Shown piece after piece: positions 1-10,170 of a stretch of DNA of 64,000 nt (position 1 is the first letter of the stretch; every line of letters starts with the position of its first letter). The position numbers were made by a program, and so were the translations under genes. The DNA is from Thalassotalea sp. PP2-459 (GTDB lineage: Bacteria; Pseudomonadota; Gammaproteobacteria; Enterobacterales; Alteromonadaceae), in assembly GCF_001913705.1 (NCBI RefSeq), contig NZ_MKQD01000065.1, positions 62,001 through 126,000 of the forward strand. Reading direction: 5' to 3'. The notes below the pieces were generated by a model. It was not told the origin of the DNA. It worked only from the letters and a program-made list of their open reading frames with translations, and searched no databases.

Positions 1-1
1 A

Positions 2-154
2 AATCATGCGTCTTTTGACCAGCGAAATTACGGCTTTAAAAAACTTAGCGATTTATTTGCTGCAATTGATTTGTTTGAAATGAAGCAAACTCATGGCTCA
101 GCAACATGGGTAAGGGATAAGAAAAAGGTAAAACATAAGGAAGCTAGTCAATAA
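2..154 (+). CDS. C-terminal fragment of NYN/LOTUS (OST-HTH) domain protein, cut by window edge
   Basis: An open frame runs in from the left edge and stops at TAA 152-154; the visible 50 residues include the stretch FDQRNYGFKKLSDLFAAID followed by a WVRDKK-like ending. This matches the typical last part of the OST-HTH/LOTUS winged-helix domain at the C-terminus of LabA/DUF88-type NYN-domain proteins, which are predicted PIN-like RNases with an RNA-binding tail. The catalytic NYN domain would lie outside the window and is not seen. The stop codon overlaps the ATG of the next gene (TAATG), so the two genes are probably co-transcribed and perhaps translationally coupled. The family assignment rests only on the C-terminal motif. 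Confidence 0.6.
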   Translation, partial: NHASFDQRNYGFKKLSDLFAAIDLFEMKQTHGSATWVRDKKKVKHKEASQ

Positions 155-936
155 TGATGTTTGGAATTGATGTAAAAGTTATTGCGGCATTAATCGCACT
201 GTTTGGGGTTCTGATAGCCTCAGCTTTAAGTGCAGGAGCTTATTTTTATAAAGTGAGAGCTGAGGCAAAAAAGAGCGCCCGAAAGTCACTCTATTACTTA
301 CTAGAAATTAGGTACTTTATTCTGACTTCACTGTTTAACCCGGATAAGGAAACTGCATTATACATTGAACATTACTCCGAACACCTTACCGAAAAAGGCA
401 TTAAGCTTTCAAAAAGTGACTTTGACGATGTGCTTGTTGATTTAATTCGTGGGTACTTTGAGAGCATCGTTTCGACCGTAAAAATTAAGGCAGAAGCTGA
501 CTTAATAAAACCCTATGAAGAATCACTTTTGGAGCTTGCTGGCGTTAATCCAGTTTTATCATACAGCCTCAAGGGCAAGGAAACTCTAGCAAAGCTAATT
601 AGCCAAGCGAGTCAGTATAGTACGTCCGTTCCTAACAATATTGAGTTACCAAAAGGGATGGAGTGGATGAATGATCTTGTTGTTGAAATTTCCAATGATA
701 TGTCGGAAAAATCAACAGAGGACTCTATAGCTCAATTGGAAGACGATATTTTGGCTCTTTCTAAAACTTGTGGCTCCAAAACACATAAAAACACCAAAAT
801 CGTGCTGGAAAACCGTTTGACCTTAAAAAACAAAGATATGTTTATTGAACTTGATTCTTATATGGATCAAGTAATTGATAAAATGGTGTCAGCATATAAG
901 AATCAACTATCTGAAACTAAGCTCCAAAAAAACTAG
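154..936 (+). CDS. Membrane-anchored protein of unknown function in a candidate conflict operon
   Basis: I do not recognise a family for this 260-residue protein. One hydrophobic segment at about residues 8-32 is followed by basic residues (KVRAEAKKSARK), suggesting a single N-terminal membrane anchor with a cytoplasmic, mostly helical and charged remainder. The start ATG at 154 overlaps the stop of the upstream NYN/LOTUS gene, and an AAGGAAG Shine-Dalgarno-like stretch lies upstream at about 137-143; a second ATG at 157 is an alternative start. Its position ahead of another membrane protein, an MBL hydrolase and a protease-NTPase suggests it belongs to the same functional unit, but that is inference. 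No catalytic motif was seen. Confidence 0.7.
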   Translation: MMFGIDVKVIAALIALFGVLIASALSAGAYFYKVRAEAKKSARKSLYYLLEIRYFILTSLFNPDKETALYIEHYSEHLTEKGIKLSKSDFDDVLVDLIRGYFESIVSTVKIKAEADLIKPYEESLLELAGVNPVLSYSLKGKETLAKLISQASQYSTSVPNNIELPKGMEWMNDLVVEISNDMSEKSTEDSIAQLEDDILALSKTCGSKTHKNTKIVLENRLTLKNKDMFIELDSYMDQVIDKMVSAYKNQLSETKLQKN

Positions 937-1033
937 ATCATTGTGGTAAAAAACGGGAATCTGGTTTGCTAATAGAATTTACAGTAAAGTTGTTTTAATT
1001 AATTGATCTTATTAAAAGGTATAGAGGATTGGA

Positions 1034-1687
1034 ATGTCTCATCAACAAGTGAATTTTGAACAGCCGGAAGAAGAATTGGACTCAACCTCATCTATTTTTG
1101 AAATTCCGGGTGTATTGAAGCTTGCGGTAACACTATTTTCATTAGCGATAATTACCATCTGTATTTGCCTAACTCATCAATATATTGGTGCACCAAAACA
1201 ATATGCTTCGCCAAAAGACCTTGGATTAAGCTCAATATTTCTTTTTTCGATTGTAGCTTTATTTGTTGTATGGATACCCTGGGGTAAAATGGGAATTCGT
1301 ATTTCAAAAATTGGAGGAATTGAGTTCAAGGAAATAGTACAAGAACAAGCTTCAGAGCATGCTGAAGAATTAAGTTATTTAGAAGATCGAATTGAGTCTT
1401 TGGAGGCTCATATTAGAAATCATGATGGAATAACTGAACTTACAGAAAGTTTTCAAGAACCGCAGCTTAGGGAGCAATTAATTAAATTCCTAACCAAATA
1501 TAACAAATGGGCATTTTCCCCTTCCAGGATTAAGGCGTGGGGTTCTCAGCAACAAGGGTTTTCCGGGCTTTCTTCTTATGAACACCCGTTTATAAGGAGC
1601 ACTTTGCAAAAGATGGTCTCCGAAAAGTTGCTCGAAACTAGAATTAGTAAGAAGGGCAATACGCTATATCGTATTGCTGTTAGTTAG
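1034..1687 (+). CDS. Two-helix membrane protein with coiled coil and possible C-terminal winged helix
   Basis: The 217-residue protein has two hydrophobic segments (about residues 28-48 and 65-84), a charged coiled-coil-like stretch (about 103-132, rich in E, L and I), and a C-terminal part of about 65 residues. The pattern of that last part (helices around FLTKYNKWAFSPSRI and STLQKMVSEKLL, then a KKGNTLYRI beta hairpin) resembles a winged helix. I do not recognise a named family. It ends 8 bases before the MBL gene, so the two are very likely in one operon. The layout, a membrane anchor with a cytoplasmic coil and a small interaction or DNA-binding-like domain, would suit an adaptor or sensor; this is inference. 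Confidence 0.7.
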   Translation: MSHQQVNFEQPEEELDSTSSIFEIPGVLKLAVTLFSLAIITICICLTHQYIGAPKQYASPKDLGLSSIFLFSIVALFVVWIPWGKMGIRISKIGGIEFKEIVQEQASEHAEELSYLEDRIESLEAHIRNHDGITELTESFQEPQLREQLIKFLTKYNKWAFSPSRIKAWGSQQQGFSGLSSYEHPFIRSTLQKMVSEKLLETRISKKGNTLYRIAVS

Positions 1688-1695
1688 ATTTATCT

Positions 1696-2709
1696 ATGAC
1701 GTTAACTATTACCAGCTTCCAAGCAAAATATGGCGATGCTTTTCTTGTCGAAGAGCCTGATAGCAGTGTAAGCTTTTTAGTGGATTGTGGCTTCAAGCTA
1801 ACTTATAAAAACCATATCAAGAAAAGAATTAATTCTGTAAATTTCATAATATTAACGCATTCTGATGAAGATCATATTAATGGCGCTTTTCCTTTAATTA
1901 ATGACTATCCTGAAAAATTTTCTTTAGACAAAGTCTACGTAAACTCTCCTGAATCGATACCTGCTCCTAGAACTAATGGCGATATTTCGATAAGGCAAGC
2001 CAAAGATCTAATGACTTTGCTTAAAGAAAAAGAAATACCATTTGAAGGACTAATCCAAGGGCAGACTATTAATCTTTCTAATGAGCTATCTCTAGACATT
2101 ATTTCTCCAACTAAAACTGAGTTAGATTCTTATTATGAGAAATATAACAGCCAAGTTGGCACCACACTTCAGATCACTCACGAGACCGATATATCACAAA
2201 ACGTAACAACTAAAACTATTGTAGAGTGGGCTAAACAGCCAGATTCATTCCCTAGAACGTCGGATGATGTAGCTAATGCAAGCTCCATTGCTTTCGTCCT
2301 CAATTTTAGAAATAAAAAAGTGCTTTTTTTAGCTGATTCGCATCCTGAAGTTATTACCAACTATCTAATCAAACAAGGCTATTGCCAAAAGAAAAAAGTA
2401 GAGTTCGATTACATTAAGTTATCTCATCACGGTAGTGCAAAAAGCATATCAAAGAAGCTAATAAGTATGATTAGTTGTAATAATTATATAATTAGCACCA
2501 ATGGTGGTAAGGCGAGGAGCAAGCACCCTAGTGTTGAGACTATTGCAAAGCTGGCCATTCTCGTTGATAGGAATGGAAAAAGTGAAATTAATTTTTACTT
2601 TAATCATTCTGTTGCCTCAATAGAGGCAAGAAATGGCCCTTTGCTGACTGCAAAGGAACGAACTCTGTACCTGATAAATTACATAGAACAAAATGAGATT
2701 AGACTTTAA
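1696..2709 (+). CDS. ComEC-like metallo-beta-lactamase-fold hydrolase
   Basis: A 337-residue MBL-fold enzyme. The N-terminus (FQAKYGDAFLV, then FLVDCG near residues 27-32) is typical of the ComEC/Rec2-like MBL branch. The metal-binding motif HSDEDH is at residues 55-60, a later aspartate lies in VLFLADSH, and a histidine pair lies in LSHHGS, so all expected metal ligands appear present. Members of this branch are predicted nucleases or phosphodiesterases; the substrate here is unknown. There is no signal peptide or membrane segment, so it should be cytoplasmic, unlike true ComEC. The stop TAA (2707-2709) shares its last base with the ATG of the protease-NTPase gene, indicating tight co-expression with that protein. 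Confidence 0.85.
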   Translation: MTLTITSFQAKYGDAFLVEEPDSSVSFLVDCGFKLTYKNHIKKRINSVNFIILTHSDEDHINGAFPLINDYPEKFSLDKVYVNSPESIPAPRTNGDISIRQAKDLMTLLKEKEIPFEGLIQGQTINLSNELSLDIISPTKTELDSYYEKYNSQVGTTLQITHETDISQNVTTKTIVEWAKQPDSFPRTSDDVANASSIAFVLNFRNKKVLFLADSHPEVITNYLIKQGYCQKKKVEFDYIKLSHHGSAKSISKKLISMISCNNYIISTNGGKARSKHPSVETIAKLAILVDRNGKSEINFYFNHSVASIEARNGPLLTAKERTLYLINYIEQNEIRL

Positions 2710-5700
2710 TGAACCACCTTACATTTATGCCCCGTACTACGGTTCAAATTTTTAAAGAGTCACGTTATCAAGGCAGTGCTGTGCTCGTCAAAGTTAAGAA
2801 CAAGTTTTATGTTCTAACCGCTGCACATGTAGCATTTGGTAAAGAATGTAATCTTTACACTGATGCTCTTAGTTCAAGTTTAACTTACAAATCAGAATCA
2901 ATAGGGGAGCTAACTTTTGTTAGACAACTTGGGAATCTAGATATATACAAAACACACGACATTTTGGCTGTCGAAGTTAAAGCTAATTGTGAAAGCTTTC
3001 CTGATATTCATTTTACTAGTGATACAAATAACCCTAAATTGGAATTTATATTTAGAGGAAGTGCTAAATCTGAAAGTGGCAAAATATACTCAGTAAAGCC
3101 ATGCATCAAAAATGGAATTAGTGGAAAAGATATTCATTTAGAGATCCCTGTTAAAGATTACACTGATTTTGAAGGTGAAGCTGGTGCAGTGGTCTTACAG
3201 GGATTCTCCGGTAGCGGAGTGTTTATACATGACGACAACTCAAGCGAGGCTTTTTTAACATCAATAGTGAAGTCTGTAAGCGCCGATAATTTTGTTGGCG
3301 TTAATTGTACCTGTATATCTTTATATAAAGAGTACTTGATACCTGAAATTAGTTTATTTGATAAGCTTCAATCGTCACACAATCAGCTCACTAATGGGCT
3401 ACATCAATATATTACTGAGAGCAATACTCCGGATATAGAAGCTTTGTCGCATTCAATTGCCCAAAACGTTATCTCTAAGATTGTACCCGAAGACTTTTCT
3501 GCTAACTCAGACTTGGTTATATCACGTATATCTACTTTCAGTTCAATCCAAGATGTTCCGTTACCTACAGCAATCGCATCAAGAACTAATTTAATTGATA
3601 GTATTACCTATTCTCTTAATGAATATGGGACGGCATGGTTGTATGGTTCTGCTGGAGTCGGAAAAACAGTAGCAGCGAAAATGGCAGCTAAGAATATAGG
3701 TGGAAGTTGGTTTGGAGTGAATTTAAGAGGGTTAGATTCACAAGAAGTTTGCCAAATACTAGCTAGCCCATTAGTTAGTCCGGGAAACCAAGAAATTAGA
3801 GGCATTTTATTAGATGATTTCGATTACACATGCGATTCTATTATTTACGAGAAATTAATTAGCCTTCAAAATTCTTGTCGAGATGCAAATATCTATCTGG
3901 TTTTTACATCATCGAAATCAATTGACGAAGATTTCCTCTTTTCTACTAACCTTCCGCCAGAAGTTGAACAAAAAGTTGATGACTTTACGGAAATAGATAT
4001 TAAAGAAATTTTGTTAACCTTTGGTGTGACTGAAGATTATTGGGTACGATATATACATATGTCTTCAGGGGGAGGGCATCCTCAGCTAGTAATTGCAATG
4101 ATTCAAAGTATGAGGAAGAACAAATGGAGTCTAGAAGAATTCCGAACCTTAAACTCACTGTTACAACAAAATGAAGCAATAGAGAAAGTTAAAAAGAAAA
4201 CAAGAGAGCGTTTGCTTCGTGAACTTCCTTCAAATGCGAGAAAGCTAGTCGAGCGAATATCTGTAATTACAGGTAGATTTGATAGGCACCTTGTTCTTGA
4301 TTTAGCTTTATTATCTCCAAAAATAGAAGACGCTGGGATTACCTTCGACCATCTAATAGGCTCCTGGATAGATCAACATGAATTAGATCGTTTTTCTTTA
4401 TCTCCCTTACTATCTAATTTAGCCGTTGCAACTTTAACTGAGGCGCAGCGAAAACAAATCCAGTACGAAATTGCAGACTCTATACTACGCACAAAAGTAA
4501 TTGACCCAATTACAATGAGTACCGCATTCATAGCTGCGTTTGCAGGTGAAAATAATGGAGCGCTAGCAATTTTATGCTACCCAGTTCTTACTACTGAGCT
4601 CAGTGAACTTCAAATCATTGCTCCACATTTAATAACGTGGACACTTTTTCGAACAGACGATTCAATTTATGCACATGATTCGAATATAAATATTATGCTG
4701 AGAGGCGCACAGTTAATACTTTTAACGTGTTTTGAAGACAAAAAAGACAAGTATATAGAAGCGTTTAATCGTTTTGAAATAGAATCTGATAACTCAGATG
4801 CTAAAGAGGTTGGTAGCTCAATATTAGTACGCATAATGATATACTCAAAGCTACTGTTATCTCATCCAAAATTTGGAAACTTACCAAATTGGTATTCAGT
4901 AGCTGCAAAGCTCAATGATCTATTAAAACGAAAAGAAGAATTACTTCCAGCGTCAATACCTCATAAGGAAATACCGACAAAAGTTGAAGGTATATCTGCT
5001 GTAGGTTTTTTGATCATTAATCAAATCCATCAAATTGAAACGATAGATGCACTAATCCCGTTATTCGAGTTTGTTGATACTTTAGATTCAGGAACAAGAG
5101 GGGAACTATTCGAAACAATAGAGCAAATTGATTTTGGTGTAGACGTTTTTGTCAGGGGGGCATGGTTAAATGAATATAAAAGAGAAACCATTGATTGCGA
5201 GAAGCATTCAGCCATATTCTCGGAACTAGAGCTTTTTGCAAACAAGTGGGAGTATAAGGAGCTTGCCTCAGTTTGTGTACAATTCGCTGCTATAATTTGG
5301 GATGAATCGGGAGGCCAAAAAGAGAAAGCTCTTGAGGTCATCGATTTAGGCATAAAGAAATATGGAAGCTCAAATGTTTGCTTAATAAGAGCGAAAGCAA
5401 AAGTGCTATTTAGAGCGAAAGATTTTGCTGAAAGTCTTCTTCTGTCAAATCAACTGACTGATTCGAATGCATCACTGACCAATGTGGATAAAGTATTTTT
5501 TTATCGCGACGCAGCAATATGTGCAGAGAATGAAAAGAGATATTCATTAGCAAGGAAGTATTATTTACTTGGGGTATCAGCTTGCAGAGAAAAGGTTCTA
5601 GTCGAAAATAAACCGATGCAAATAGGATTTCAAGCCGATGCTGCCCTAGCAAGTTGGCATAATGGTAATAAGGAAGAATGTATCCAAGATCTAGCAAATG

Positions 5701-6797
5701 TGCTGCTAGAACTTAAAAAACTAGATCCTAAGACCTCTTTGCAAGCAGCTCATTGCCATGCAATATCCCACCATATTTTACATATTTTATTGTGGCTTGA
5801 ACAAGAAGCAACAGGTAAAAAGAAGTTTATCTCTGCTGAAGAAGCCGTCTCAATATATCCTGGAATTGTTAGCAATCCTGAGCCTAGTAAGGACATAGAT
5901 AAAAAAGAGTTAACTCCTATAGAAATGGCTTGGTACATGCTTGCTTCTTTAGAGAATTATTGTTCATTAGATTTGGGAGTGTCGATAAAACTTAATGAAA
6001 ACTTACCCAATGGTCCAATAGCGGAAGGCGAGTTTTTATTAGAATCTTCTATACTTGAGAGGGCAATCAAAAAACCAGATGGTGAGTTGCTAATAAATGC
6101 TTTGAGGGGTTTTGTTTCAGGTCTAATTTACGTTTCAACTAAACGTGATATAAGTAATAGAAATGAATCAATAGAACCAAATTTCACATATCAGTCATTA
6201 CCAGAAGCAACAAGCGAAGATTTTGAACGTTTAAGTGATATGGTTGAGCACAACTTACTTGCCTTTGTTATCAGTTGTTCGTTACAAAACAAATGGGAAG
6301 AAGTTGATAAATTCGTAAAACAAATCTCAATACAACCAATAACAGTTATTCGAACAGAGTTAATTGGTATATTGGAAGGCAAGGATTTAAATACGACTGA
6401 TGCGATAGCTAACAACACCAAATTATTTATGAGGTTTCGTCATTATCAAAATTTAAGTCCTATTTACGTAATCATTGGGATATTTCAACGCACCTTATTC
6501 GCTATTCAGGCTGGTATCGATATAAGGCAATCACATTTAATAGCTAGGCTTGCATTTGAATCACTAAAAGGTAATTGGTTAGCCTTTTGGGCGCAACAAA
6601 GACATTTACTAAAAGATCCCGAGCATCATTTTACCAATATTAATAAAGCGTTATCTGTGAGGGGCTACTCATGGGACGAATATGTTTTGAATCTAATGAA
6701 AGCAATTTTACCTACATTAGATGTACCGGATGAGCCTGAAGTCGAAAGTTCTTTGAATGGATTGCTATCAAAAGTTCAAAGCAACAAGAAATTGTAA
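2709..6797 (+). CDS. Trypsin-like protease fused to STAND/AAA-like NTPase and helical repeats
   Basis: A 1362-residue multidomain protein. The N-terminal 220 residues look like a trypsin/HtrA-fold protease, with His40 in VLTAAHV, Asp84 in THDILAVEV and Ser167 in GFSGSGV as a plausible catalytic triad. A P-loop NTPase follows, with Walker A GSAGVGKT at residues 313-320 and Walker B ILLDDFD at about 366-372, then a VFTSSKS sensor-like strand and a winged-helix-like region. Residues of about 600-1340 are a long alpha-helical array with TPR-like segments around 880-1010. There is no signal peptide, so the protease should act in the cytoplasm. Protease-STAND-repeat architectures are typical of bacterial conflict proteins in which the repeats sense a trigger and the NTPase switches on the effector. 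It is translationally coupled to the MBL gene. The trigger and targets are unknown. Confidence 0.85.
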   Translation: MNHLTFMPRTTVQIFKESRYQGSAVLVKVKNKFYVLTAAHVAFGKECNLYTDALSSSLTYKSESIGELTFVRQLGNLDIYKTHDILAVEVKANCESFPDIHFTSDTNNPKLEFIFRGSAKSESGKIYSVKPCIKNGISGKDIHLEIPVKDYTDFEGEAGAVVLQGFSGSGVFIHDDNSSEAFLTSIVKSVSADNFVGVNCTCISLYKEYLIPEISLFDKLQSSHNQLTNGLHQYITESNTPDIEALSHSIAQNVISKIVPEDFSANSDLVISRISTFSSIQDVPLPTAIASRTNLIDSITYSLNEYGTAWLYGSAGVGKTVAAKMAAKNIGGSWFGVNLRGLDSQEVCQILASPLVSPGNQEIRGILLDDFDYTCDSIIYEKLISLQNSCRDANIYLVFTSSKSIDEDFLFSTNLPPEVEQKVDDFTEIDIKEILLTFGVTEDYWVRYIHMSSGGGHPQLVIAMIQSMRKNKWSLEEFRTLNSLLQQNEAIEKVKKKTRERLLRELPSNARKLVERISVITGRFDRHLVLDLALLSPKIEDAGITFDHLIGSWIDQHELDRFSLSPLLSNLAVATLTEAQRKQIQYEIADSILRTKVIDPITMSTAFIAAFAGENNGALAILCYPVLTTELSELQIIAPHLITWTLFRTDDSIYAHDSNINIMLRGAQLILLTCFEDKKDKYIEAFNRFEIESDNSDAKEVGSSILVRIMIYSKLLLSHPKFGNLPNWYSVAAKLNDLLKRKEELLPASIPHKEIPTKVEGISAVGFLIINQIHQIETIDALIPLFEFVDTLDSGTRGELFETIEQIDFGVDVFVRGAWLNEYKRETIDCEKHSAIFSELELFANKWEYKELASVCVQFAAIIWDESGGQKEKALEVIDLGIKKYGSSNVCLIRAKAKVLFRAKDFAESLLLSNQLTDSNASLTNVDKVFFYRDAAICAENEKRYSLARKYYLLGVSACREKVLVENKPMQIGFQADAALASWHNGNKEECIQDLANVLLELKKLDPKTSLQAAHCHAISHHILHILLWLEQEATGKKKFISAEEAVSIYPGIVSNPEPSKDIDKKELTPIEMAWYMLASLENYCSLDLGVSIKLNENLPNGPIAEGEFLLESSILERAIKKPDGELLINALRGFVSGLIYVSTKRDISNRNESIEPNFTYQSLPEATSEDFERLSDMVEHNLLAFVISCSLQNKWEEVDKFVKQISIQPITVIRTELIGILEGKDLNTTDAIANNTKLFMRFRHYQNLSPIYVIIGIFQRTLFAIQAGIDIRQSHLIARLAFESLKGNWLAFWAQQRHLLKDPEHHFTNINKALSVRGYSWDEYVLNLMKAILPTLDVPDEPEVESSLNGLLSKVQSNKKL

Positions 6798-7152
6798 TCT
6801 CTTTTTCTGAGCGCAAACCTAAATATTCTGCATGGTCACATTGAGTGTTCAAAAATGAAAGAGCTAATTTTACTTTTTGATTACAGTCTTAAGCAATATG
6901 CGCAGCCACGGTTGTAAATTTAATGTGGAATTTTCTGGTCGTGTGACCCATTTCTGATAATTTGTGACGATCCACAAATGTGTAACTGCCCATAATACTT
7001 GAGATTGCCAATCACTGAATGAGAATTAGCCCATCTAACATTTACTTTGATACGATACTGGACATTCTCCCCGCAGATATAAATATGCATGGTTTTGACA
7101 ATAAACATTACCAATTCATCGTTAGAGTTTCGAGCTGCTGTTTAGTTGAAAA
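6798..7152. other. Intergenic region downstream of the candidate conflict operon
   Basis: No convincing gene was found between the protease-NTPase and the dihydrofolate-reductase-family gene, whose ends converge here. A short hairpin (ATTTGTG 6960-6966 pairing with CACAAAT 6973-6979) is present without a following T-run, so it is not a clear terminator. No direct repeats, tRNA fragments or integrase remnants were seen, although this would be the natural right edge of an island. Confidence 0.5.
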
Positions 7153-7689
7153 TTATGATCTAAGTCGTTTAAAACGGTTTTGGCTAATACCATTAGAAAA
7201 CACTTCTGAATCAGTGCATATAAACTCAAGAGTATTTTCTTGTTGAGCAAATAGTGGAATACCACCACCTAACAGAACGGGAATAGTGGTAATTATGATT
7301 TCATCTATCAAATCTTCTTTTAGAAAGTTCTGAATTGTAACACCGCCGTCAATATACAAATTTTCATAGCCCTTACCTTTTAATTCTTCAGTTAATTTTC
7401 TTAAATCCCCATTTACCAAAGAAACTTTGTCTTCATAGCCTTTTGCTACAGCATTAAGTGTATTACTAAGAACGAATACTGGCTTTGAATACGGCCAATC
7501 ACAATCTAGTGTTAACACTAATTCTAATGTATTACGCCCCATGACTAAGGCATCAATACTTTCCATATGTTTAACAAACCCCATATCTAAGTTATCAGGG
7601 TTAGGAATTGCATGCAGCCATTCAACTTCATTGTTTTTATCTGCGATGTAGCCATCAATACTTGTTGCTATAAATACAATATTAGTCAT
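7153..7689 (-). CDS. Dihydrofolate reductase family protein (RibD C-terminal-like)
   Basis: A 178-residue single-domain protein of the RibD_C/dihydrofolate-reductase-like superfamily. It opens with the family pattern NIVFIATSIDGYIAD, has MGRNTLE near residue 50 and a glycine-rich segment VLLGGGIPLF near residue 140, all characteristic of YyaP/YwjB-type proteins. These bind NADPH; the physiological substrate is usually unknown, and true folate reduction should not be assumed. A GAGGT ribosome-binding site precedes the ATG. It is divergent from a TetR-family gene with a perfect palindrome between them, so it is probably the main target of that repressor. Confidence 0.85.
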   Translation of the reverse strand: MTNIVFIATSIDGYIADKNNEVEWLHAIPNPDNLDMGFVKHMESIDALVMGRNTLELVLTLDCDWPYSKPVFVLSNTLNAVAKGYEDKVSLVNGDLRKLTEELKGKGYENLYIDGGVTIQNFLKEDLIDEIIITTIPVLLGGGIPLFAQQENTLEFICTDSEVFSNGISQNRFKRLRS

Positions 7690-7727
7690 AGTTACCTCTT
7701 ACATTGATCTAAGATTAATTTCAAAAT

Positions 7728-7744
7728 ATTCTACACTGTAGAAT
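7728..7744. promoter_or_regulatory. Perfect 17-bp palindrome, probable TetR-family operator
   Basis: ATTCTACACTGTAGAAT is a perfect inverted repeat with 8-base arms and one central base, lying in the short gap between the divergent DHFR-family and TetR-family genes. Size and placement fit a TetR-family operator that controls both promoters; binding is inferred. Confidence 0.7.
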
Positions 7745-7778
7745 TAATTTGTAAACCAACATAAACTGAATAAATAAA

Positions 7779-8360
7779 ATGACGATAAAAAAAAGAGGCC
7801 GACCTCAAAAAGAATCAAAGGCATTAAGCAAAGAAGTGATAATAGAAACAGCTAAGAAGCTGATGATAAGTGGCGGAAAAATACCAAGCATTAGATCATT
7901 ATCTGCGGAACTCAATGTTGATGCGATGGCTATTTACTATTACTTTAAAAATAAAAGTGAATTGCTAGAAGAGCTAACAACATCCCTAATTTCTGAGATA
8001 TATCAACCGCAAAAAGATTTAGAATGGGAGGTAGAGCTACGCAAGCTTTCAAAGAGCTACATTGTACTTCTATACAAGTATGATGGTCTGTTGCAAACTT
8101 TACTGTCTATGAAGTCAGCAAGTCCAGCTAACGTTTTTATTAATAGATTTAAAATCATTATGAACAAGCTGAATATGAGTACGTCCATAGAAAATGTTTC
8201 GTTAAACTTACTCGCAGATTACTTACATGGCTTCTCTATTTCAATGAGTTGTGATACCACAGGTAAGTTAACCGTTGATGATATTGACGAATCTCTTGAT
8301 ATTATTTTCACTGGAATAAATGCTTATATAGCCAATAGAAAAGATAATTTAACACCGTGA
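7779..8360 (+). CDS. TetR/AcrR family transcriptional regulator
   Basis: A 193-residue regulator. The N-terminal helix-turn-helix is clear: a basic KKRGRPQK leader, then VIIETAKKLM, IPSIRSLSAELNVDAMAIYYYF and KNKSELLEEL, the hallmark layout of TetR DNA-binding domains. The C-terminal ligand domain (residues of about 75-190) is helical and resembles TetR_C-like domains. The ligand is unknown. It is divergent from the dihydrofolate-reductase-family gene, with the 17-bp palindrome at 7728-7744 between them, so autoregulation and repression of the neighbour are likely. No strong Shine-Dalgarno sequence precedes the ATG. Confidence 0.9.
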   Translation: MTIKKRGRPQKESKALSKEVIIETAKKLMISGGKIPSIRSLSAELNVDAMAIYYYFKNKSELLEELTTSLISEIYQPQKDLEWEVELRKLSKSYIVLLYKYDGLLQTLLSMKSASPANVFINRFKIIMNKLNMSTSIENVSLNLLADYLHGFSISMSCDTTGKLTVDDIDESLDIIFTGINAYIANRKDNLTP

Positions 8361-8703
8361 CTTAAGTTTAATTGATTATCTCCTATGCGTTTACACCGGT
8401 CTAACGGTCGAGCAGAAAATCTTGGCTAATATTGCCGTAAATATGCTCCTGAATTTACAAAAGCTAGCTAATGTCGGCTATTTGTGAACATTAAGATTGC
8501 TGACTGAATATCAGGTATCATGATTAAAAAACAGAGAAATCGATAAAATCTCATTTGTTTTAGTCATTCACATAAACTACTTCAATATGAGATAGTCCCA
8601 AACATTATGCTTAGTCACACGTTATTTAAGCAAGTTTGTAAAATAATTGTTCATCCGTCTAAGTGGCCGTTAGCAATCCCATACAATGAAAGAAATATCG
8701 CTA
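8361..8703. other. Intergenic region between convergent genes
   Basis: No open frame, RNA or clear terminator was recognised between the TetR-family gene and the glutathione synthetase gene, which converge here. The sequence is AT-rich with no obvious repeat. Confidence 0.4.
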
Positions 8704-10170
8704 TTAGTAGATAAGTACTAAAGAATCTAAAATACCTTGACCGCTATGAATGCCACCTTCATTTTCATTAGCTGGCTTGCTTCGAATTAGGTATCCAGCA
8801 TAACCATTCAGCTTTGTGACAGGTTTCCCATCAAAATAGGCTGTAAATAGGCCTATCTCACTAACTAAGTTATCTACTCTTATCGGTTTACTATCTCTTA
8901 TTGCAACTGTGGGTATGTCACGCTCATGGGGAAATAAACGCTGCATAAATGTCCATGCATCGTAATCTTGCGGTTTTAGTTGTTCTAATTTTTCACTGAT
9001 ATCATCACCAAAAATACAATGCCCGCCACCTTCTCCTTGGTTTTTGAGCACCCATTGCTGTTTAGTTGCTTGCGTGTTAAACCAAGCGATTGTTGCTTGG
9101 TTGAGTGGTTTCATTTCGGCAAAAACGCTTTTTACTAATGTTCCTTCTTCTAGTGTCAGCCCCCAGCGAGTATAATCTTGGGGTAACATCAAACTAAGTT
9201 GCATTTGCATGGCTTTACTTGTTGCTAACTGCTGGCCAAATGTCGCATTAACTGCCACACGGTGTTGTTCAATGAACAACCTTGTTTGACTTAATGATTG
9301 ACAACACATTTTTTCATCTTGCTCTGGTGTATAATAATCGTTGCACTGATAACCTGTTCGCAGATAGACCACATCAATTGCTCCAACCCCTGTTAACATC
9401 AACCGTTGATTTCTCCCTGTATAAAGTTCTTTGTGTAATTGCTTAAAAGTCCGCCTTACCGTTTGTAAACCAAGCTGTTGCAAAGCTACCTCTAGCAAAT
9501 GTTGGTCATAAACGTTGTCTTCATTTTCTTGGATCACCATTAAAAAGATTGGCTTTTGAGCTTTTTCTTCCTCAGCAAAAGAGGCTTTAACGCTGTTTGC
9601 CGCTGCTGAAATTCCGTAAGCTAGCTGCTCTAGGCCTTTATTATCTGCTGGCGTAAATTTATCTGTTTCTAACCACCGCTGATATACACCTGTCCATTGA
9701 CTATTAAGATATGCATGAAGCTCTGTCGCTCGTTGCCCAAAAGGTGCCATACCTGCGGCTATGCCATTGAACTCTATTACTTTTACTCCATGAGTTATAT
9801 CACTCATAAAGTCAGTGCGCATTAGTAGCAAAGGTTTTCTTGCGGGTTTAATTCGGTTATCAATTTTGCCATGCGCCTGTTGATGTAAAGAAAGAATACG
9901 TGCAAAAAATGCATCTGCTTTTGCCAGATCAGCAAGCGAAGTTTGTAAAAAATCATGATCTTCAGAGATGTTGTTGATCAATTTAGTCATAATTGGCGTT
10001 ATGTTACATAACCTTTCGAACACTTCATTATTCATTGCGATAGGAGCAATGCTCAATGGACAATGTTTGGCTGTATTATCAGCCTGACGAAATGCTACGC
10101 CATGCATAATTGCCCACTGAGTAATGTCGTCAATCATCTGTTGTGGAATTAAAGGATTGGCATTACTCAT
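8704..10170 (-). CDS. Glutathione synthetase, eukaryotic type
   Basis: A 488-residue ATP-grasp-superfamily enzyme of the eukaryotic glutathione synthetase type, predicted to join gamma-glutamylcysteine and glycine using ATP. Family landmarks are RTDFMSD and KVIEFNGIAAGM in the N-terminal part, VVYLRTGYQCNDYYT in the middle, the glycine-rich nucleotide loop VLKNQGEGGGHCIFGDD, VSEIGLFTAYF, and a C-terminal NENEGGIHSGQGILDS segment. Length matches the animal/plant enzyme (about 470-490), not the roughly 315-residue bacterial GshB. I chose the ATG at 10170 because AGGAG lies 8 bases upstream; an in-frame upstream ATG at 10215 lacks this. It is divergent from an ArsR regulator. Confidence 0.85.
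   Translation of the reverse strand: MSNANPLIPQQMIDDITQWAIMHGVAFRQADNTAKHCPLSIAPIAMNNEVFERLCNITPIMTKLINNISEDHDFLQTSLADLAKADAFFARILSLHQQAHGKIDNRIKPARKPLLLMRTDFMSDITHGVKVIEFNGIAAGMAPFGQRATELHAYLNSQWTGVYQRWLETDKFTPADNKGLEQLAYGISAAANSVKASFAEEEKAQKPIFLMVIQENEDNVYDQHLLEVALQQLGLQTVRRTFKQLHKELYTGRNQRLMLTGVGAIDVVYLRTGYQCNDYYTPEQDEKMCCQSLSQTRLFIEQHRVAVNATFGQQLATSKAMQMQLSLMLPQDYTRWGLTLEEGTLVKSVFAEMKPLNQATIAWFNTQATKQQWVLKNQGEGGGHCIFGDDISEKLEQLKPQDYDAWTFMQRLFPHERDIPTVAIRDSKPIRVDNLVSEIGLFTAYFDGKPVTKLNGYAGYLIRSKPANENEGGIHSGQGILDSLVLIY

Follow-up and report, generated by a model that had tools for sequence, protein, structure and literature searches.

The window analysed here, a stretch of 64,000 nucleotides of Thalassotalea sp. 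PP2-459 (bases 62001-126000 of a 197-kb contig; genome of 4.08 Mb), opens with a row of genes for an NYN-LOTUS protein, a protein of 260 amino acids (aa), a 217-aa protein, a metallo-β-lactamase (MBL) fold hydrolase and a 1362-aa protein in which a trypsin-like protease is fused to a STAND-like nucleoside triphosphatase (NTPase) and helical repeats (Table 1). An earlier note on this DNA had taken all five genes as one undescribed conflict or defence operon with very tight junctions. In our opinion the last three genes (1034-6797) quite probably constitute a variant STAND-like sensor system equipped with a nuclease-protease pair, carried as cargo by a Tn7-like transposon. The co-directional arrangement was confirmed, with four complete open reading frames (ORFs) on the + strand and the fifth gene, NYN-LOTUS, present in the window only as its last 154 bases. 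The tight junctions stand for three of the four (an overlap at 154, 8 nt at 1687/1696 and an overlap at 2709) and not for the 97 nt that separate the 260-aa and 217-aa genes. The protease-fusion gene follows directly on the MBL gene and overlaps with it. A consensus promoter scan of the operon showed no excess of matches (19 versus a shuffle mean of 26.7), an Rfam scan of L003:400-1600 and of window positions 1-9000 gave nothing at gathering score, and no ORF of at least 60 aa is contained in full in the stretch from 6797 to 6976, where the transposon ends.

Table 1. Genes, domains and transposon end at the locus (window positions, unless preceded by L003)
Feature	Position	Strand	Remarks
NYN-LOTUS gene, 3' end	1..154	+	full 241-aa ORF at L003:11429-12154, starts upstream of the window
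260-aa protein gene	154..936	+	complete ORF
217-aa protein gene	1034..1687	+	complete ORF; opens the three-gene cassette shared with Colwellia
MBL-fold hydrolase gene, 337 aa	1696..2709	+	complete ORF; PADLOC and Pfam matches
1362-aa protein gene	2709..6797	+	complete ORF
Trypsin-like protease domain (residues 1-280; H40, D84, S167)	2709..3548	+	PADLOC LmuA PDLC03855
STAND-like NTPase and helical/TPR-like repeats	3549..6797	+	P-loop 313-320, DD 369-370, GHPQL 456-460; Foldseek
Right terminal inverted repeat, Tn7-like transposon	6952..6976	-	left counterpart L003:862-886

The two enzymes of the cassette were recognised through models of defence proteins. The MBL protein matched the PADLOC models for LmuA (PDLC03854, 249 bits), reverse transcriptase (RT)-associated MBL (RTasMBL, 180 bits) and Avs1a (129 bits), as well as Pfam Lactamase_B above its cut-off, and residues 2-263 of the 1362-aa protein matched the LmuA model PDLC03855 with 65 bits; this second model also recognises a Runella protein that bears an N-terminal Pfam Trypsin_2 domain. 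The claim that the catalytic residues are intact in both enzymes is borne out, since the protease has the triad given in Table 1 and the MBL protein has HSDEDH at 55-60, D214 and H244/H245. The catalytic roles of these residues, and of those of the NTPase, are the ones we presume from general knowledge of the folds. It should be noted that a family search with PDLC03854 is unspecific, with matches in 195 of 274 class genomes and in 9 of 14 control genomes. Four stronger PDLC03854 loci were read and one of them, in a genome of the same class (L155:971-4406), looks canu-like, with a caspase-like gene (by reading), a middle gene and an MBL gene in that order.

Tuck et al. (PMC12799240, seen in part) showed that MBL proteins of this kind are gated pro-nucleases in which the partner protease cuts at conserved Ile residues; their evidence is biochemical for Hachiman and comes from mutants and blots for AVAST, and they also describe the pair in Lamassu and DRT. 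In an alignment of 10 MBL proteins, I97 of the window protein (also I97 in Colwellia) falls on I133 of the Vibrio parahaemolyticus Avs1a, the first activating cut position, and V170 (A170 in Colwellia) on its I234, the second one. Ile is found at the first position in five of the 10 proteins, window and Colwellia among them, and at the second also in five, with V present as well in the MBL protein of Lamassu type from E. faecium; close to V170 there are I166 and I175 (F in Colwellia). For E. piriflorinigrans, whose sequence is outside this alignment, PMC12799240 gives I134 as the cut position of gating loop 1. By analogy, the MBL protein of the window can be considered a putative gated pro-nuclease.

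Beyond the protease, the 1362-aa protein shows NTPase motifs at 313-320 (GSAGVGKT, with K319), 367-370 (LLDD) and 456-460 (GHPQL). Pfam AAA reached 16.4 bits in this protein and nSTAND3 21.1 bits in one of its homologues (L022), both below cut-off, and no NCBIfam model matched the 1362-aa protein at E 1 or better. An AlphaFold model of residues 1-1190, built on an 11-row alignment, had predicted local distance difference test (pLDDT) values mostly above 70 from residue 290 on, except for about 440-600, and below 50 in the protease region. Its best Foldseek match in the PDB was the STAND-TPR protein 6mfv (E 5.7e-6, template modelling score, TM-score, of 0.15), and Avs3 (8dgc) was found at rank 26 (E 1.7e-3, TM-score 0.10). 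When solved structures were searched by sequence, single proteins gave nothing significant, and the family profile retrieved AAA ATPases together with a weak DUF4297 match (E 0.005). A phage origin was rejected: the phage collection had no match for the 1362-aa or the 217-aa protein, and none of the 68 viral-contig stretches matched by the 217-aa pair was a relative.

The limits of the cassette could be drawn by comparison with Colwellia psychrerythraea ND2E. BLASTN (E 1e-5) of window positions 1-7000 against the Colwellia stretch gave a single block, 1032-6840, with 74% identity, that covers the 217-aa, MBL and protease-STAND genes, whose proteins are 87%, 78% and 66% identical, respectively. 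Upstream of the block, a gene for a CoiA-like protein of 431 aa replaces the 260-aa gene, and before it stands an NYN-LOTUS gene with an 82% identical product. The five genes that the earlier note had put together do not hold as one set, given that the shared DNA starts at the 217-aa gene, that the 260-aa gene is replaced in Colwellia and that NYN-LOTUS copies precede unrelated genes in other genomes. Judged from these comparisons, the functional unit is likely the smaller set of three genes.

Matches to the large protein were obtained in two of 295 sampled genomes of the family and in two of 369 of the class, its own genome being counted in both, and the second class match (L008) is weak, with 22% identity. 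Homologues of the NTPase and repeats were found on 15 of 72,556 plasmid records, and a five-row alignment, scanned once against 84,980 species genomes, gave 15 loci. Only the Colwellia locus (L019, the same as stretch L007 of genome G270) matches in the protease part too, with 65-66% identity over the whole protein. All 16 other examined homologues with a readable N-terminus start instead with a Cap4-like region: 10 genome loci (L020, L022-L026, L028, L030, L031 and the divergent L033) and six plasmids (L010-L013, L016 and L018). Four genome loci (L021, L027, L029 and L032) are cut or lack a readable N-terminus, the annotation of plasmid L017 begins at a later start, and the reading of L015 begins at the match. 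The Cap4-like regions hold an RGY, GGY or KGY motif and YQ. Pfam Cap4_nuclease matched the two genome homologues scanned, below cut-off (L022, 2.1e-4; L031, 2e-3), and none of the four scanned plasmid homologues at E 0.1. The LmuA model PDLC03848 recognised four of four genome homologues (50-62 bits) and three of four plasmid ones (27-29 bits), while the fourth plasmid homologue matched only DUF4297, with 16 bits.

Compared with the window protein, these Cap4-STAND-repeat homologues (L020, L022-L026, L028, L030 and L031, besides rhizobial and other plasmids) share a homologous NTPase and repeats, with 22-42% identity by tblastn, and differ in having a Cap4-like nuclease where the window protein has the protease. 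No MBL or 217-aa relative was detected by tblastn at the Cap4-form loci, where some stretches end close to the gene. As to the grouping of the 1362-residue protein with the MBL and two membrane partners, most homologues surveyed lack these neighbours, likely because the Cap4-like nuclease stands in for the protease, whereas the protease-bearing one keeps the 217-aa protein and the MBL. In a midpoint-rooted tree of 18 cores (without L021, L027, L029, L032, L033 and L015; long branches flagged), window and Colwellia form one branch (100/100) inside a clade of 10 rows (100/100), the rest of which are Cap4 forms. According to this topology, the probable direction of the swap is that a nuclease of Cap4 type was exchanged for the protease in this lineage. 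LmuA of Lamassu has been described with Cap4 or trypsin N-termini (PMC10586767, seen in part), and the STAND-like family and Lamassu LmuA appear to have drawn on the same pool of effectors.

Concerning the small proteins, the 217-aa product has, by reading and without a predictor, two transmembrane (TM) segments and a C-terminal part resembling a winged helix-turn-helix; its AlphaFold model was unusable (pLDDT 39). A relative with 54% identity occurs on a Vibrio aerogenes plasmid, the sole matching plasmid record, and another in G330, one of 369 class genomes besides its own; neither has MBL or STAND genes beside it. The 260-aa protein has one N-terminal hydrophobic segment (by reading), no Pfam or NCBIfam match above cut-off and no PADLOC match, and its relatives are found on one Pseudomonas and seven Alteromonas plasmids. 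From its replacement in Colwellia we judge that it is a variable neighbour and no part of the core.

The NYN-LOTUS gene encodes a protein with NYN (PF01936, 138.7 bits) and OST-HTH/LOTUS (PF12872, 58.5 bits) domains, both above Pfam cut-offs, and here the earlier identification was correct. Matches were present in 69 of 295 family genomes (E 0.001, weak ones included); from a longer list, we examined 32 close copies (at least 64% identity; those with internal stops left out) and five distant ones. Of these 32, 14 have a close follower, as their next ORF on the same strand (100 aa or longer) starts no more than 100 nt away. The downstream PADLOC scan covered chosen proteins, mostly larger ones, of 11 of these 14 tight copies (L089 and L108 were left out), and all 11 had one or more matches at E 1e-5 or better, in some cases in a gene further down than the first. 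The matches were LmuA/MBL in the window, GmrSD/NsnA in L004, Hhe/PDC-S37 in L084 and L096, caspase in L085, Shango SngA/B/C in L087, type I restriction-modification (R-M) with Dsr1 in L090, PDC-M60A in L093, PglW/NERD-like in L091 and L092 (30 and 37 bits) and PDC-M03A in L105 (29 bits). At the Colwellia locus (L007) the CoiA-like protein alone was scanned, with no match at E 1e-5. Counted by protein, 17 of 30 scanned downstream proteins matched PADLOC versus one of 10 control genes of the window (at least 400 aa, outside the island), a small set of core-like genes and not of random accessory ones. Among copies without tight followers, ordinary host genes come next in L083, L086, L095 and L107, no PADLOC match was found downstream in L088, L094 and L101, and defence matches were found in L097 and L099; nine more (L098, L100, L102-L104, L106 and L109-L111) are outside the scan. 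In L083 (genome G109), a 95% identical NYN-LOTUS gene is followed by a remnant of the 260-aa gene and then by a TonB-receptor-like gene.

Plasmids speak against a strict link of NYN-LOTUS with defence genes. Of 371 plasmids with a match, the six highest-ranked were examined with the PLSDB gene table, which is incomplete: four copies have no such followers, the Aeromonas caviae copy is followed by helicase and type I R-M genes, and the genes after the Photobacterium damselae copy are ambiguous. A promoter-like element, TATG[GT]CAT[AT]AA, precedes the start by 43-60 nt in 12 of the 32 close copies and in none of the five distant ones (mononucleotide shuffles gave a mean of 0.018 and a maximum of 1 in 500, with relatedness uncontrolled). 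A second copy in the same genome (L004:5980-12021), near two tRNA-Ser genes and a recombinase-like gene, is followed by genes for a HEPN protein of RiboL-PSP type, for two proteins of 314 aa (membrane-like) and 433 aa, and for a GmrSD-N/NsnA-like protein of 770 aa. Anantharaman et al. (2010; PMC2848206), in the part of the article consulted, report no linkage by conserved neighbourhood of bacterial LK-nuclease/OST-HTH genes to other known RNA-processing systems, and consider them possibly standalone enzymes of RNA degradation. No publication that links NYN-LOTUS to defence operons was found by a search beyond whose reach most subscription journals lie. We judge from the varied followers that NYN-LOTUS is not specific to the protease-STAND cassette and would be a neighbouring lead gene outside its core. 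A bolder and rather doubtful proposal is that it is a portable, promoter-equipped, RNA-binding nuclease at the head of interchangeable defence operons of marine gammaproteobacteria, which it would control at the RNA level or whose toxicity it would gate. If so, it would be a shared regulator of defence operons unlike the WYL/BrxR repressors, that is, an unrecognised regulatory layer common to unrelated defence systems, and the protease-STAND cassette would be one plug-in operon among them.

A Tn7-like element of about 18.1 kb, from L003:862 to window 6976, carries the operon as cargo, and its termini are inverted repeats (28 aligned bases, 89% identity). TniQ, TniB (TnsC) and HTH_Tnp_Mu_2 (TnsB) were recognised above Pfam cut-off, and TnsA-like_N (24.6 bits) and rve (24.8 bits) below theirs. 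At the target site AATG is present on both sides, and a perfect 5-bp duplication was not seen. The flanks of the element are 98-99% identical in a same-species genome, which holds at the same site a different element of about 22.5 kb with its own tns-like genes (by reading). This other Tn7-like element (genome G066, L081/L082) carries an SMC-like 982-aa gene in a cluster that resembles Wadjet by size and order. Between the left end of the window element and tniQ, L003:2779-4092 encodes a 437-aa ATPase-like protein (PADLOC PDC-S59, 131 bits). Tn7-like transposons with defence cargo have been described (PMC8649781, seen in part), and the window element likewise has a TnsA/B/C/TniQ-like set, terminal inverted repeats and defence cargo. 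It differs in its insertion beside an apparent GTPase gene of EngB/YihA type (by reading); the terms yihA, ysxC and engB are absent from the main texts of PMC8649781 and PMC10293859. A housekeeping role was rejected, as none of the other four congeneric genomes (one of the same species) has the 1362-aa or the 217-aa protein and the genes lie inside the transposon.

Taken together, the defence role proposed in the earlier note is well supported by the PADLOC models, the Tn7-like island and the published nuclease-protease module (PMC12799240). Its description as undescribed holds at most for the chassis and not for the MBL-protease pair and its mechanism, which are published in the same paper; the present analysis contributes the description of this chassis and its transposon setting, the limit at three genes and the apparent swap of N-termini. 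For the anti-phage mechanism that we infer for the locus, we rely on homology to systems in which it has been tested. A phage cue would be recognised by the repeat half of the 1362-aa protein, and oligomerisation of the STAND-like core, dependent on nucleoside triphosphate, would render the fused protease active. The protease would then cut a gating loop of the MBL protein, with I97 preceding the first cut (V170, which aligns with the second cut position, is not Ile), and the freed nuclease would degrade DNA, so that the infected cell would die or stop. The 217-aa protein with its two TM segments would be a third, conserved component that perhaps serves as membrane anchor or as regulator. The ancestral sensor probably bore a nuclease of Cap4 type and acted without partners; later, this nuclease would have been exchanged for the protease and the MBL protein added in trans.

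Several observations weigh against this interpretation. The protease form was found at two loci only, both in one GTDB family, and the comparison of N-termini covers eight of the 15 plasmid records, with L008 and seven plasmid records outside it. The tree does not fix how the window pair, L020 and L031 branch from one another; this, together with the midpoint root and the flagged long branches, makes the direction of the swap probable and not proven. Pfam support for the NTPase and Cap4 domains is below cut-offs or absent, and most of the other top Foldseek matches are generic TPR or helical-repeat proteins, with low TM-scores to STAND structures. The AlphaFold model is unreliable in its protease part, since unrelated Cap4 N-termini enter the alignment there. 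The cut positions appear not to be strict in the set of 10 MBL proteins, and the second-position Ile is absent here; loss of either Ile abolished Hachiman defence, whereas each single loss merely reduced AVAST defence (PMC12799240). Finally, relatives of the 217-aa protein occur elsewhere without these partners.

Other explanations fit the same locus less well. A functional operon of five genes, with an NYN-LOTUS RNase, two membrane proteins, the MBL and the protease-STAND protein acting together, would agree with the co-directional, overlapping or close genes and with the NYN-LOTUS gene ahead of the Colwellia cassette (82%), but we consider it improbable: the shared DNA block starts only at the 217-aa gene, Colwellia has the CoiA-like gene where the window has the 260-aa one, and copies of NYN-LOTUS are followed elsewhere by genes of Shango, Hhe-like, type I R-M or GmrSD type, or, on plasmids, by none of this kind. 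On account of the gene replacement, the varied followers and the block limit at 1032, the five-gene unit was rejected. Slightly less credible still is that the locus belongs, as a divergent member, to AVAST type 1 (Avs1) or Lamassu and not to a separate STAND-like family; the MBL-protease pair is shared and Avs1a and LmuA models match the MBL protein, but the NCBIfam Avs1a score of 175 is below the cut-off of 420, the 1362-aa protein has no Avs1b or Avs1c model match nor a significant BLASTP match to two Avs1b-type proteins, and none of the four operon proteins matches LmuB or LmuC. The least likely explanation is that the cargo operon has decayed or is inactive and persists as a hitchhiker of the transposon. 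The missing Ile at the second cut position and the rarity in the sampled family (two of 295 genomes, including its own) would be expected of it, but all three ORFs are open in both species with their motifs kept, and the identities amount to 87% (217-aa), 78% (MBL) and 66% (STAND).

If the preferred reading of the three-gene cassette is correct, one more sensor family would join the list of those that use the nuclease-protease pair. The apparent swap within the lineage would replace a fused Cap4-type nuclease by a protease whose role would be to activate a separate nuclease, in trans, both options being known for Lamassu LmuA, and effector swapping would become testable with the sensor family held constant, as the Cap4 relatives are about 40% identical in the core.

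Among known systems, AVAST type 1 (Avs1a-Avs1b-Avs1c) resembles the cassette in combining an MBL with a protease fused to an NTPase and repeats. Membership was rejected, as the Avs1a NCBIfam model gave 175.2 bits on the window MBL (cut-off 420), the 1362-aa protein had no PADLOC or NCBIfam match to Avs1b and no significant BLASTP to two proteins of that type (1916 and 1939 aa), and no Avs1c model (PADLOC, NCBIfam) matched among the four operon proteins. The likeness to Lamassu resides in the PADLOC LmuA models, which match the Cap4 forms (PDLC03848), the protease (PDLC03855) and the MBL (PDLC03854), the effector type behind each model being our inference from a PADLOC label that says 'LmuA' alone; the difference is that no LmuB or LmuC match was found among the four operon proteins (PADLOC) and that the window effector is fused to a STAND-like NTPase. 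Another chassis for the pair is seen on a Runella slithyformis plasmid (L150:5968-11125), where an MBL gene (PDLC03854, 280 bits) is followed by one for a 1363-aa protein with Trypsin_2, TPR and PIN-TPR-GreABC domains; PMC8195603 (seen in part) mentions that the TPR-GreA/B-C-PIN system has forms with trypsin. The closest parallel is the nuclease-protease pair of Hachiman HamMAB, AVAST, Lamassu and DRT (PMC12799240), with which the window shares the order of an MBL gene followed by one with an N-terminal trypsin-like domain, the metal motif of HxDxDH type and the Ile at the first position. It differs from this pair in its chassis, a 1362-aa protein of a STAND-like/repeat family outside the four named in the text of that paper, and in that both the window and Colwellia have V/A at the second position and a gene for a two-TM protein directly upstream.

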